Virus record (IMG/VR): IMGVR_UViG_3300030102_001239
Span: 520-21,317 of that record
Reading direction: 5' to 3' (one strand)
Length of the DNA stretch: 20,798 nucleotides
From: a virus
Shown here: positions 6,499 to 11,984 of the stretch, in pieces
Layout: each line of letters begins with the position of its first letter
Position numbering within the stretch: the stretch's first letter is position 1
The notes under the pieces: model-generated
The model's database searches: none
What the model was told of the DNA's origin: nothing
Seen by the model: the letters and a program-made list of their open reading frames with translations, nothing else
Position numbers and translations under genes: made by a program

Positions 6499-7010
6499 TA
6501 ATCTTCTACGTTAAATAATAATTCAAAATTGTTGTCTGTGTCTTCTGCTAATTTTTGTGGTAAATCAACTTTTAGTTTGTCAAATGCTCTTTCAAAAGGT
6601 GCAGTAAAAAACAAACTCGGCTTAATTCCTTTGTTGAATACGCTTCTTGCTATAAGATATTGTAAACTCTTTCTTGGAACAAATCTTCCTTTTTTGTCTC
6701 TCGTTCCTTTGATCCCTTTTCTTATAACCCATTGACTAAAAGCTGAAGCAGGAGGCATTTTAGACTTAAAGCTAAAAGGAGTTCCGTATTTTTGTTTCTT
6801 TCCACTTACACCCTGATCTTGATAGTAACCATATTCTTCCATAAAGAATGTTAATGTAGTTGCATCAGTTGTGTCATTTATTTTATAGGTTAAACTGTTG
6901 TATAGCTTTTTGCTTACGTTTCTACGTTGCTTTGTAAGATTAGTTCTTGCTTGTTTTATAACAAACTTAGCAAATCTATTTAATTCTTGTTTAACCCTGT
7001 TTAACTGCAT
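6498..7010 (-). CDS. Tail completion / neck-like protein (HK97 gp10-like, putative)
   Basis: 170 aa, basic. It begins with a helix NRVKQELNRFAKFVIKQART and contains SKKLYNSLTYKIN and the segment EEYGYYQDQGVSGKKQKYGT (58-77), which resembles the y.iqd.GvsG loop of gp10-like tail-completion proteins. It continues with PPASAFSQWVIRKGIKGTRD and KPSLFFTAPFERAFDKLKVD. Such proteins link the connector to the tail. It lies between the putative tail terminator and a large beta-rich tail protein, with a TAATG start/stop to the latter. Family placement is moderately supported by the motif and the position. Confidence 0.6.
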   Translation of the reverse strand: MQLNRVKQELNRFAKFVIKQARTNLTKQRRNVSKKLYNSLTYKINDTTDATTLTFFMEEYGYYQDQGVSGKKQKYGTPFSFKSKMPPASAFSQWVIRKGIKGTRDKKGRFVPRKSLQYLIARSVFNKGIKPSLFFTAPFERAFDKLKVDLPQKLAEDTDNNFELLFNVED

Positions 7011-7471
7011 ACGTTTATATCATTAGCGATTAATACATTAAACGTACAAGCTACACCTGCCATTTGATTCTCAAATCTTTCGTAGAAGAACTCACAAGAA
7101 GCATCTCCCTCTAATTGATATTTGTTTTGATATAGTGTGCCTTTACTAAGCAGACCTACTAATTTATTTGCTACAGCTAATTGTGTGTTTAGGATGTCTT
7201 GCTCGTTGTTGTTGCCTCTGAATACGTCTGTTGTTTCGTCCTTAGACTGATCTACTACATCCATGCACATTACTGTTATGTTGAAGTTGAGGACTTGTTC
7301 TTGTATAGTTACGTTGTTTACTATTATATGGCTTAAAGGGAAGATTGTTTGTTTAGATAAATCTATGTCAAATATATCGCCTGTTGTTACAGTATTGACA
7401 TTTTCATCTGCTAAGAGATTAGTCTTTATAGTGTCTGTGATTTGGTAATAGCCTCTTACTCCTTGATTCAT
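7001..7471 (-). CDS. Tail terminator / head-tail joining protein (putative)
   Basis: 156 aa, starting MNQGVRGYYQITDTIKTNLL. It has an N-terminal helix and then strands: VNTVTTGDIFDIDL, FPLSHIIVNNVTIQEQVLNF and NITVMCMDVVDQS, followed by a helix NTQLAVANKLVGLLSKG and a final strand CEFFYERFENQMAGVACTFN. The arrangement, with a strand pair around an ALK-like helix, is the tail terminator (gpU-like) pattern, which caps the tail tube. Its start lies in the ATGA formed with the -1 frame of the chaperone, and it overlaps the next gene by 10 nt. The role is inferred from size, strand order and position. Confidence 0.55.
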   Translation of the reverse strand: MNQGVRGYYQITDTIKTNLLADENVNTVTTGDIFDIDLSKQTIFPLSHIIVNNVTIQEQVLNFNITVMCMDVVDQSKDETTDVFRGNNNEQDILNTQLAVANKLVGLLSKGTLYQNKYQLEGDASCEFFYERFENQMAGVACTFNVLIANDINVCS

Positions 7472-8204
7472 CGATTAAATTTACTTTTTATATTCTTTGA
7501 TTCTACCTCTGCTTTTTCTTTCATAAAACTTAAAGCATAAAGACAGGTGTGTATGTTTAGTTTAGTGATATCTTCAAATCTTCTAATATCTCCTTGAGAG
7601 AGACCGAAAAGTGATTGATACCATCCCCATTTTCTGCCGAAGTTAGATACTGCGCTAAGTTCGTTTCCTTGTCCTCCAAAGAGTTCAGCATAGCTTTCGA
7701 CAAGTCCATCCCTAAATTGTAAAAAAAAAGTATAGAACTAAGTACAGCATCCATAGGCATATTTAACATCTTCTCAGGATCATCTCCTGTATAGTCCTCA
7801 ACAAGATACTTTTCTTTATATTTTTGTTTCATTGGTCTATATAAAACATTCATAGCTCTATGTATGTTGTTCATGTCTCCTATGTAAGTATCTAAGTCAA
7901 TATACTCTCCAAATGTCATATCTTCTAACTTAGGTACAAAACCATAATTCCTACCACCCATTTTAAACTCTCTTACAAGCTGAGGTTTCTCATTAAACAT
8001 TTCTGTAAGTATAAGGGTTATGTCTTTAATACTATTTGCTTTCATAGCCATTATTGTATTGCCTCTTAGTCCACAAAATATTTCTATCATTTTTATAGCT
8101 AAGAAGTTCTCATCTTCGTTGTTCTCTTGGATCTTTAGATACTTTTGGTATTGACCTAAAGTTATCTCTCTAAGAGTATCAGGAATATAAACCTCTACTT
8201 TCAT
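7468..8204 (-). CDS. Tail assembly chaperone, -1 frameshift product (gpGT-like)
   Basis: Slippage by -1 on the T9 run would join residues 1-161 of the frame-0 protein to 84 codons in the overlapping frame, giving about 245 aa. The extension begins LQFRDGLVESYAELFGGQGN, contains GRKWGWYQSLFGLSQGDIRR and FEDITKLNIHTCLYALSF, and ends EVESKNIKSKFNR. This looks like a genuine helical protein: KWGWYQSLF and GDIRRFEDIT have the feel of T-type chaperone domains. No ATG occurs in this frame until 18 codons before its stop, so independent initiation of the full domain from ATG is excluded. Its TGA forms ATGA with the next gene, while the frame-0 stop leaves an odd 85-nt gap. Confidence 0.72.
7557..8204 (-). 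CDS. Tail assembly chaperone, frame-0 product (gpG-like)
   Basis: 215 aa. The N-terminal part reads MKVEVYIPDTLREITLGQYQ, then IFCGLRGN, FGEYIDLDTYIGDM, RAMNVLYRPMK and MLNMPMDAVLSSILFFYNLG. It is helical, without signal peptide or membrane protein character. The last 54 residues after F161 end with SAENGDGINHFSVSLKEILE and DLKISLN. This layout, and the frameshift into an overlapping tail frame at the T9 run, match the gpG/gpGT logic of siphophage tail assembly chaperones that bind the tape measure protein. It follows terL by 34 nt. The chaperone call depends mainly on the frameshift architecture and tail-module position. Confidence 0.7.
   Translation of the reverse strand: MKVEVYIPDTLREITLGQYQKYLKIQENNEDENFLAIKMIEIFCGLRGNTIMAMKANSIKDITLILTEMFNEKPQLVREFKMGGRNYGFVPKLEDMTFGEYIDLDTYIGDMNNIHRAMNVLYRPMKQKYKEKYLVEDYTGDDPEKMLNMPMDAVLSSILFFYNLGMDLSKAMLNSLEDKETNLAQYLTSAENGDGINHFSVSLKEILEDLKISLN
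7721..7730 (-). other. Programmed -1 frameshift slippery site C(T)9
   Basis: On the coding strand the run reads C, nine T, then ACAATTT. In frame 0 this is CTT TTT TTT TAC, so the P- and A-site codons (TTT TTT) can re-pair perfectly after a -1 slip. The next codon then becomes TTA, opening 84 sense codons. It matches the canonical X-XXY-YYZ heptamer (T-TTT-TTT). No downstream pseudoknot was evaluated. Confidence 0.7.
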
Positions 8205-9684: not shown

Positions 9685-9804
9685 CTACTTTTTTTCTTTT
9701 TTGTCAAGCTGTTTTTTTATTACCTCAACACTCATATAGATTTGGCTTACTATATTCTCTAATCTTTTTATTCTTTGTATTGTGGTGTATTTTTTGTTTA
9801 CCAT
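9685..9804 (-). CDS. 39-aa coiled-coil microprotein upstream of terS
   Basis: A short frame from ATG at 9804 to TAG, overlapping the methyltransferase end by 7 nt. The product begins MVNKKYTTIQRIKRLENIVS and ends with KQLDKKEKK; hydrophobic residues recur at heptad spacing (I, L, I, V, I, V, I). It could dimerise as a short coiled coil. Position just before the packaging genes suggests a packaging or transcription accessory role, but no family name can be given. Confidence 0.6.
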   Translation of the reverse strand: MVNKKYTTIQRIKRLENIVSQIYMSVEVIKKQLDKKEKK

Positions 9805-10424
9805 AGTCTGCCTTGTTGTTTATGTTGTTCTATTCGTTTCTTTGCTGCTTCAAAATATTCTTTATCTATTTCGTATCCTGTTAGCTCAAAGCCTAAGTTA
9901 TGACAAGCTATAGCTATTGAGCCACTACCTAAATGTGTATCAAGTATTGTATCTCCCTCTTTTGCATATTTCATAAGCAACCACTCATATAGTTTTACAG
10001 GTTTTTGTGTAGGGTGCATTTTACCACCTTGTTTTTTTCTGTCTTGTATTACTTTATGTATTGAGTATCTAAATACTTTAGCAGGTTTTTTTAAACCCAT
10101 ACTAACCCAAGCGTACTCAGCAGAAGCAAAATTATCTACTGTTTGTTTTTTATCCCATACGCAAAAATATTCTGTTTCAGGTAATGTAAAATTGTTAGCA
10201 CCCCATATTATCTGATTTCTACTTACCCTAAATAATTCTGTAAAAAAATCACTTCTCGGTTTTATATCCCAATCATTAATTTTAGCATTTGCACATATTC
10301 TATTTGAAACCTCAACCCTATCCCCAAACCTACCAATACCATAAGGAGGATCAACAATAGCTAAGTCAAACTGATTGTCTGACATCTCTTTCATTGCCTC
10401 CATACAATCTTGGTTGTAAATCAT
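9798..10424 (-). CDS. DNA methyltransferase, N6-adenine or N4-cytosine type
   Basis: 208 aa. Motif IV is DPPYGIG (25-31), followed by a likely target region (NRICANAKINDWDIK, VSRNQIIWGANNF), then HPTQKPVKLYEWLL (137-150), and motif I, LDTHLGSGSIAIAC (161-174), with EIDKEY (185-190). This is the beta-class order and a near-textbook phage adenine-type methyltransferase. The THLGSGS variant of motif I (usual F-x-GxG) is common in phages. It is a second enzyme of the same fold in the same operon as the 216-aa methyltransferase but with different target loops, so the two probably modify different sequences. No restriction partner is present. Confidence 0.9.
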   Translation of the reverse strand: MIYNQDCMEAMKEMSDNQFDLAIVDPPYGIGRFGDRVEVSNRICANAKINDWDIKPRSDFFTELFRVSRNQIIWGANNFTLPETEYFCVWDKKQTVDNFASAEYAWVSMGLKKPAKVFRYSIHKVIQDRKKQGGKMHPTQKPVKLYEWLLMKYAKEGDTILDTHLGSGSIAIACHNLGFELTGYEIDKEYFEAAKKRIEQHKQQGRLW

Positions 10425-10953: not shown

Positions 10954-11350
10954 CTATATCTTTTAAGGGTAATGTATCTACTATTCTAAGGAGCTTCTTT
11001 AAGTCCTTTGATTTTGTGTAGTCTATTATGTGGTTTATTAATGCTCGTCTTAATTTTGATTTGTTTCTTATTCTAAGTAAGACTATATCAAAATACTTGT
11101 CTATTTTTTGATTGTATCGTCTATGAGTTTCAAAAGATTTTAAACTATGTAAAGCTGTAGCATGATCATAATCTTTTCCTTTAGATTGATAAAAGTCTCT
11201 AATGTCTGTAAACTTCATATTACAATGATGCCTCAACATAAACGTAAGCAAAGACCTCATCTCAATATATTTTCTTTTTCTTGTGTTTTTAAATACATCA
11301 ATGCCTGATATATCTATAATATGTTTTGCTATTTTATTTGCCTCTCTCAT
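10928..11350 (-). CDS. DnaA domain IV-like DNA-binding protein (no ATPase domain)
   Basis: 140 aa. Residues 25-80 match the helix-turn-helix of DnaA domain IV: KYIEMRSLLTFMLRHHCNM (28-45), FTDIRDFYQSKGKD (47-60) and the DnaA signature-like DHATALHSLKSF (62-73; compare D-HST-V-LHA in DnaA). There is no AAA+ domain, Walker motif or DnaB-loading domain, so it cannot act as a full initiator. A stand-alone domain IV could mark a phage origin for host DnaA or helicase, or compete with host DnaA. It follows the first methyltransferase with a 17-nt overlap, and its own 3' end overlaps the zinc-ribbon microprotein by 26 nt. Confidence 0.75.
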   Translation of the reverse strand: MREANKIAKHIIDISGIDVFKNTRKRKYIEMRSLLTFMLRHHCNMKFTDIRDFYQSKGKDYDHATALHSLKSFETHRRYNQKIDKYFDIVLLRIRNKSKLRRALINHIIDYTKSKDLKKLLRIVDTLPLKDIDGNKVQKV

Positions 11351-11984
11351 AAATTCTTTTATTAATTATATCACAATATTTTTTATCTACCTCATAACTT
11401 ATAGTATCATAACCTAAATCATAAGCTACTTTGCTTGTTGTGCCACTTCCTGCAAATACATCAATTATTGTTTGATTTTCTTCTGCTGTAGTTTTTATTA
11501 TTTTGCCAATTACTTCTTCAGGTATCTGACAAGGGTGTTCTGTTTTTTCCTTACTAACATTTTTTACTTGATTTATATTCCACCAATCATAAATCTTTGC
11601 ACCTGTCTTACCCTCTGCTATTCTTTTTTGTATTCGTTTATCGTTTAAGTTTTTATAAGGTTGTCTTACTTTTCTAAAGTCAGGTTTGCATCCCCACCAA
11701 CTTATTAATCTACTTTGCTTACCTGTGTTACTATTGTAAACCCAACATACTACTTGTTCACATTTTACACCTATCGCTTTAGGTAAAAGATTTATTGTTT
11801 CTTCAGGATAATGAATTATAACACAAGGAGTGGGTATTTTAGATAATAAATCTATATAATCATCTTCTACGATTCTATCTTTATATCCGTTGTAATGATA
11901 ACCTTGATTGTAAGGAGGATCTGTAATAGTCAAACCTTTTGGTATTTTACAATCTCTAAAATCTTTATTTATTATTTGTATCAC
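11334..11984 (-). CDS. DNA methyltransferase, N6-adenine or N4-cytosine type (beta-class order)
   Basis: 216 aa. The catalytic motif IV is TDPPYN (21-26) near the N-terminus, and the SAM-binding motif I, DVFAGSGTT (175-183), is near the C-terminus; this order is the beta class. HPCQIPEEVI (150-159) fits the HP.QKP-like conserved segment before motif I, and GYDTISYEVD (191-200) follows as expected. Residues 85-140 (a basic loop with ISWWGCKPDFRKVR) are likely target recognition. No cognate restriction enzyme is visible, so it is an orphan that may protect phage DNA or mark it for regulation. It is the first of two methyltransferases separated by three small genes. Confidence 0.88.
   Translation of the reverse strand: MIQIINKDFRDCKIPKGLTITDPPYNQGYHYNGYKDRIVEDDYIDLLSKIPTPCVIIHYPEETINLLPKAIGVKCEQVVCWVYNSNTGKQSRLISWWGCKPDFRKVRQPYKNLNDKRIQKRIAEGKTGAKIYDWWNINQVKNVSKEKTEHPCQIPEEVIGKIIKTTAEENQTIIDVFAGSGTTSKVAYDLGYDTISYEVDKKYCDIINKRIYERGK

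Follow-up and report, generated by a model that had tools for sequence, protein, structure and literature searches.

The lambda genes G/GT, and their analogues HK97 gp13/14 and P2 E/E', consist of two overlapping open reading frames (ORFs) in the structural module which yield a short product and a -1 extension of it, with a slippery run near the frame switch. The G part of the lambda protein binds the tape measure and the T part binds the major tail protein, while both are absent from virions. Every characterised two-form tail chaperone uses ribosomal slippage (PMC5009743), which was measured at 6-7% in two HK97-like genes (PMC3711429). A second group of genes, Shigella mxiE/spa13, Yersinia tssM3 and Thermus dnaX, carry an A or T run of about nine or more, make two products with a common N-terminus and have nearby stops in the unused frame; in these, slippage was shown by RNA evidence.

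A gene with features of both groups lies in a 20,798-nucleotide stretch of DNA (the window), taken from the 21,664-base record of an uncultured virus (IMGVR_UViG_3300030102_001239, positions 520 to 21,317). It shares the overlapping ORFs, the short product with its predicted -1 extension and the slippery run of lambda G/GT and its analogues, but has no detectable sequence or family match to them and adjoins the large terminase gene. Its family further differs from them in having a site that is always a T9 or T10 homopolymer, a long frame-0 tail (55-85 codons are dual-coded in most members) and relatives in which the protein is encoded by a single in-frame ORF. With the mxiE/spa13, tssM3 and dnaX genes it shares the long run, the common N-terminus of its two predicted products and the nearby stops in the unused frame; unlike theirs, its slippage is predicted from sequence, and its T9 also holds a ribosomal heptamer. 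Among cultured siphophages the same T9, the same frames and a KWGWY-type -1 domain were found in the Nonlabens phages P12024L (gp40/gp41) and P12024S (gp38/gp39; PHROG 32199), in which, however, frame 0 ends after 78 nt and the locus is annotated as two separate hypothetical genes, the recoding having been missed. A literature search found no paper on recoding in these phages.

Our proposal is that this one gene would give rise to two proteins sharing an N-terminal domain (residues 1-161). The majority of products would terminate in frame 0 as a protein of 215 amino acids, while a minority would shift to the -1 frame on reaching U9 and so gain a helical C-terminal domain of 84 residues; the two forms, in a fixed ratio, may then serve tail assembly as a chaperone in the manner of lambda gpG and gpGT. 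That some -1 recoding takes place at the T9 is very probable on the comparative evidence, and the explanation as a whole (a T9-slip gene, two chaperone-like forms and a narrow lean to polymerase slippage) is somewhat favoured. The features concerned are listed in Table 1.

Table 1. Coordinates of the candidate recoded gene and its features in the window
Feature	Position	Strand	Remarks
Frame-0 ORF, short product of 215 aa	7557..8204	(-)	ATG at 8204, TAA at 7559-7557; phrog_32199 E 2e-22; full-length match in 80 homologues
T9 run, candidate slip site	7721..7729	(-)	C at 7730, A at 7720; frame 0 reads CTT TTT TTT TAC
In-frame heptamer T_TTT_TTT inside T9	7722..7728	(-)	zero silent change in clade A
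-1 frame extension, C-terminal part of predicted long product	7468..7722	(-)	84 codons + TGA; purifying selection; aligns with in-frame relatives
Dual-coded overlap of frame 0 and -1 frame	7557..7722	(-)	166 nt
KWGWY motif of -1 frame	7618..7632	(-)	frame 0 reads these bases as part of NGDGI
TAG ending third (+1) frame soon after run	7712..7714	(-)	
Frame-0 stop TAA	7557..7559	(-)	identical alignment column in 69/69 near-clade sequences
Next gene, 156 aa, possibly tail terminator	7001..7471	(-)	ATG overlaps -1 frame TGA (ATGA)

An earlier note, made from the window's letters, had described a C followed by nine T's, two frames open across about 165 nt, a gap of 85 nt between the frame-0 stop and the next gene, and an 84-codon -1 frame whose TGA sits in the ATGA of that gene; all of these numbers were right. 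It had also stated that the -1 frame has no ATG until near its end, and the earliest ATG was indeed found at codon 67 of 84. Past TTT TTT this frame continues TTA CAA TTT AGG (LQFRDGL...KWGWYQS...SKFNR) and closes with the TGA at 7470-7468. Since the window is AT-rich, a T9 is not in itself rare (7 matches to T9 or A9 against 4.2 expected); what goes beyond chance is the combination of the T9 with the open frames. An A9 at 439-447, in the prohead protease gene of the same phage (1772-186), has no open alternative frame and served as a negative control. The XkdF-like protease (Peptidase_S78_2) encoded by that gene (186-1772) is an unusual fusion whose C-terminal half contains stretches of DUF3721 and DUF5824. 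In a structure model of the frame-0 product, residues 1-170 were confidently predicted (most blocks 83-96) and the tail beyond residue 178 was not (55-69).

A search with the frame-0 protein retrieved 80 loci at 64-99% identity, and in all 79 intact near homologues the T9 kept its place and register and was accompanied by an open -1 frame bearing KWGWYQS and by a frame-0 tail; the -1 frames mostly finished in the ATGA of the next gene. In one homologue (L046:4001-4647) the first reading frame breaks off 34 codons in, ahead of a T9 region that is itself intact; this is either an error or a pseudogene. As a guard against bias, a search blind to the slip site used only the -1 domain, from 17 residues past the slip onward, as its query. 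More than 590 contigs were matched, and of the 80 loci kept, 79 had an in-frame T_TTT_TTT, the remaining locus being truncated by a contig end. Additional, distant queries brought the total to 369 loci with 244 distinct -1 domains, across which the identity of the short form drops to about 27%. Among the 244 unique homologues the run was T9 in 208 and T10 in 36, T7 and T8 never occurred, and the shift was -1 in every case. Apparent T6 sites in L335, L340 and L352 proved to be mislocated, the real T9 lying downstream, and a seeming exception in L241 was a spurious motif match. The Nonlabens phages P12024L and P12024S, both cultured isolates, have the same CTTTTTTTTTATCATTTAGGG, of which a copy was also present in the long chromosome-like contig G216. 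A search of the phage collection with the T domain alone gave zero matches. The comparison of homologues for which the note had called thus found the T-rich heptamer and the -1 domain both conserved, and its central claim, -1 recoding at the T run giving a trans-frame product, is borne out at the sequence level by all 369 loci (all T9 or T10, all -1) and by the alignment of fused relatives.

These relatives were reached through a fold match to Flavobacterium phage 6H. In Duneviridae (FPSV-F7, laban6-1 and Ingeline), in Polaribacter phage Leef_1 and in a Microcystis phage (phrog_25418), the protein is encoded by one ORF of 259-301 amino acids. The profile of the trans-frame product aligned with these single-ORF proteins over both of its parts (hhalign probability 97.9, E 6e-13, columns 5-235), whereas the alignment of the frame-0 form stopped at residue 162, which is the slip site. 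By profile alignment the PHROG 25418 relatives (Cellulophaga phage Ingeline gp5; Flavobacterium phages FPSV-F7, 6H and laban6-1 gp17; Polaribacter phage Leef_1; Microcystis phage Mea-Yong924-1) have the same two-part protein; they differ from the window gene in their continuous ORF, in a T6 followed by G at the switch and in that no short form is predicted. In the single-ORF genes with the LFF motif, the switch point reads TTT TTT G (T6), not T9. The single-ORF relatives prove independently, at the level of aligned sequences, that the protein truly continues in the -1 frame. In Flavobacterium phage 6H itself, gp10 (NC_021867.1, 10352-10927; L294) is shorter than the 293-amino-acid ORF of FPSV-F7, the rest being spread over two other frames; because its relative FPSV-F7 has a single ORF, the break in 6H is probably a sequencing error or a local mutation.

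An error of sequencing or assembly in the length of the T9, the true gene being one ORF, would fit with the single ORFs of the Duneviridae and with the fact that one extra T would join the frames. It is, however, exceedingly improbable, as hundreds of independent contigs, besides two isolates and a chromosome-like contig, carry the identical T9, frame 0 stays open for about 56 codons (longer than chance permits), and the site in the single-ORF relatives holds at most T6 rather than a T10 in the joining frame. Under the second possibility the second domain would be a gene by itself, translated from a start of its own by re-initiation or internal initiation. The Nonlabens phages speak for it: there an ATG ahead of MEGFSLKWGWY shares bases with the frame-0 stop (TAATG), and gp41 is annotated at that point in the record. 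This too is highly unlikely: no ATG was present in the open -1 frame upstream of the KWGWY motif in any of the 80 loci from the slip-site-blind search, conservation of the -1 frame begins directly at the T run (F1, L2, F4 and R5 are invariant in 48 sequences), and the in-frame relatives are fused at exactly that point. Further into the domain, G34 and W35 of the KWGWY motif are invariant in the same number of sequences, and the K32/W33/Y36 region is nearly so. The earlier note had itself named stop codons in the -1 frame of homologues, the lack of a slippery run, a far-off start codon for the second domain and a T9 length error as grounds for doubt; none of them survived the survey of homologues, the length error being practically refuted. 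Sequencing error and an independent second gene are effectively excluded by the single-ORF relatives, whose alignment covers both parts of the trans-frame product but breaks off at the slip site in the frame-0 product. The TAATG overlap in the Nonlabens phages (L083:11989-12683, JQ823123.1 gp40/gp41; L388, P12024S gp38/gp39) is an observation in its own right, as re-initiation there could add a third product.

Selection on the two frames was assessed by counting substitutions on a tree of 69 near-clade sequences, sorted by their effect in both frames. In the overlap, omega of the -1 frame was 0.40 (0.28-0.58) given a frame-0 change and 0.25 given none, compared with a neutral value of 1.31 for the virtual -1 frame upstream of the run. 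Purifying selection on the -1 domain is strong. For frame 0 in the overlap omega was 0.72 (95% range 0.51-1.09), against 1.19 in a control region past its stop. A test of frame-0 omega conditioned on silence in the -1 frame was discarded, as its values fell below 1 in the non-coding control region too. Frame 0 remained open past the slip for a median of 56 codons in the 244 unique homologues, where 6 were expected from re-coding the -1 protein with synonymous codons (per-sequence P median 0.003). The stop-free state of the frame-0 tail is thus clearly kept, while its amino acids are weakly constrained. The overlap of frame 0 with the -1 frame ranges from 24 to 255 nt between groups, and therefore the frame-0 tail has no single fixed form; in a freshwater-type group (L102, L111-L118 and relatives) it reaches 240-255 nt and takes in almost the entire -1 domain. 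The possibility that the tail is a mere shadow of KWGWY proved true in part, given the weak constraint on its amino acids, but leaves its avoidance of stops. The suggestion of the earlier note that both ends of the chaperone are selected in two frames accordingly stands for the -1 frame and for the absence of stops in frame 0; for the frame-0 amino acids the selection is weak, and the length of that tail is variable. The third (+1) frame closes 2-6 codons after the start of the heptamer in all 244 unique homologues, a closure which may be forced by the dual coding of the other two frames. At the silent positions of the heptamer no changes were counted on the tree, while two-fold silent sites upstream averaged 8.7 changes and 0 of 37 were unchanged. 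A 19-base exact repeat (E 4e-4) was also noted between window positions 7574-7592, in the -1 domain region, and G000:C1:244-262 at the contig end, outside the window.

As to function, a lambda G/GT-like role in tail assembly is likely for the two-form product by analogy, and is the best reading because lambda G and GT are likewise two forms from one structural-module gene. The gene opens the tail-side module directly after the large terminase gene, rather than lying between the major tail protein and tape measure genes; a tape-measure-like gene follows five genes further on (3372-1804, phrog_167 E 2e-4). In Duneviridae the single-ORF gene precedes the tape measure gene without adjoining it and comes after portal and adaptor; synteny was sought between the next gene of the window and its Duneviridae neighbour and no homology was found. 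The HMM of PHROG 32199, a family of unassigned function, covered the N-terminal domain in the window protein (E 2e-22) and in 48 of 48 members. Pfam and NCBIfam searches gave no convincing match, no PHROG family with a chaperone function matched, and PDB searches by sequence and fold gave zero matches. The location beside the large terminase gene and, in Duneviridae, away from the tape measure gene, together with family libraries that hold no chaperone name for the protein, would suit a recoded gene with another task, such as a head-tail connector assembly factor or other structural-module helper. Such a role is possible but appears less probable, as a gene that heads a tail module and yields two forms through -1 recoding bears the hallmark of G/GT, and weak matches were obtained to the fold of a 'Tail assembly chaperone protein' of ctCpR1 (E 0.023, probability 0.99) and, in 12 of 48 members, to the phrog_166 'tail protein' (best E 0.005). 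The lambda-type tail chaperone of the earlier note is plausible on the overlapping two-form arrangement, while the position of the gene is not that of lambda and no Pfam, NCBIfam or PHROG chaperone family match accompanies it.

The device that makes the shift was weighed between RNA polymerase and ribosome. Slippage of RNA polymerase with the addition of one U is about an even prospect. In many bacterial genomes selection against slippage sets in at a length of nine (PMC1088944), and an A9 in Yersinia tssM3 slips at 15-25% (PMC4256274). The rival is classical -1 programmed frameshifting of the kind used by lambda G/GT and P2 E/E', in which the ribosome would slip on U_UUU_UUU and the extra T's would be due to the residues encoded; this is plausible if somewhat doubtful. 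The device is established in tail chaperones (PMC5009743), conserved hydrophobic or aromatic residues are encoded by the flanking T's of the T9 as well, which could make run length a by-product, and the in-frame T_TTT_TTT occurs in every homologue, which does not discriminate as any T9 contains one. No RNA structure 3' of the run was detected in 30 homologues (mean z +0.3, -0.1 and +0.4 for 50, 80 and 120 nt, in a search without explicit pseudoknots). Low-efficiency ribosomal sites such as that of lambda do not need a 3' structure, a point in favour of the ribosome.

Against the ribosome, T7, T8, T_TTT_TTC alone or another heptamer was found in zero homologues, and known chaperone slip sites reportedly vary widely. 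The T9/T10 occurs in three codon registers, the commonest being NTT TTT TTT TAY, with TTT TTT TTT CTG in L278 and L282, and GGT TTT TTT TTG in L395, L413 and L414, of which the sister L415 has GTT TTT TTT TGG; the register changes, yet the run stays at least nine long. Judged by flank frequencies, this double register compensation has a P of about 0.007, a post hoc value from about two independent lineages. Elsewhere in the genes of these phages, avoidance of T and A runs rises with their length and does not follow frame: in-frame T7/T8 heptamers are avoided no more than out-of-frame ones (0.69 and 0.64), and about two true cases of T9 or longer remain against 8.5 expected, once seven slip genes counted among them are set aside. 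This avoidance of long runs could instead reflect replication slippage. Given that RNA polymerase usually begins to slip at a length of nine, that the length of the run persists across three registers and that no 3' RNA structure was seen, slippage by the polymerase is no less likely than slippage by the ribosome; we lean narrowly to RNA polymerase, with both together possible.

In 397 genomes of one flavobacterial family the split form was found in 3, once in a long chromosome-like contig, and the single-ORF profile matched in 15. Split-form genes in flavobacterial assemblies include L389 and L390 (Winogradskyella MAG) and G216:C1:2638188-2638912 (L394, L396), the last in the long contig, which suggests a prophage and a flavobacterial host range; the window phage is of marine flavobacterial type. 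Elsewhere in the window two putative DNA methyltransferases, recognised by eye from NPPY/DPPY-type motifs, are encoded 0.9 kb apart at 9798-10424 and 11334-11984.

Recoded tail chaperones themselves were already known; new here is a recoded chaperone-like gene whose site is exclusively a T9/T10 homopolymer, whose dual-coded overlap is long and whose relatives in other phages are fused. The records compared annotate the gene as one unknown or as two separate unknowns, and the predicted long product is missing from the databases. The long dual-coded stretch makes a good set for studies of overlapping genes. We suggest, tentatively, that a very large and mostly uncultured group of flavobacterial phages may set its tail-chaperone ratio by polymerase slippage at T9/T10, while Duneviridae would make the fused form only. 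The recoding phages and their relatives with only the fused form offer a natural comparison, through which two questions become testable: whether tail assembly truly depends on a ratio between two forms, and whether that ratio can be set by RNA polymerase in place of the ribosome.
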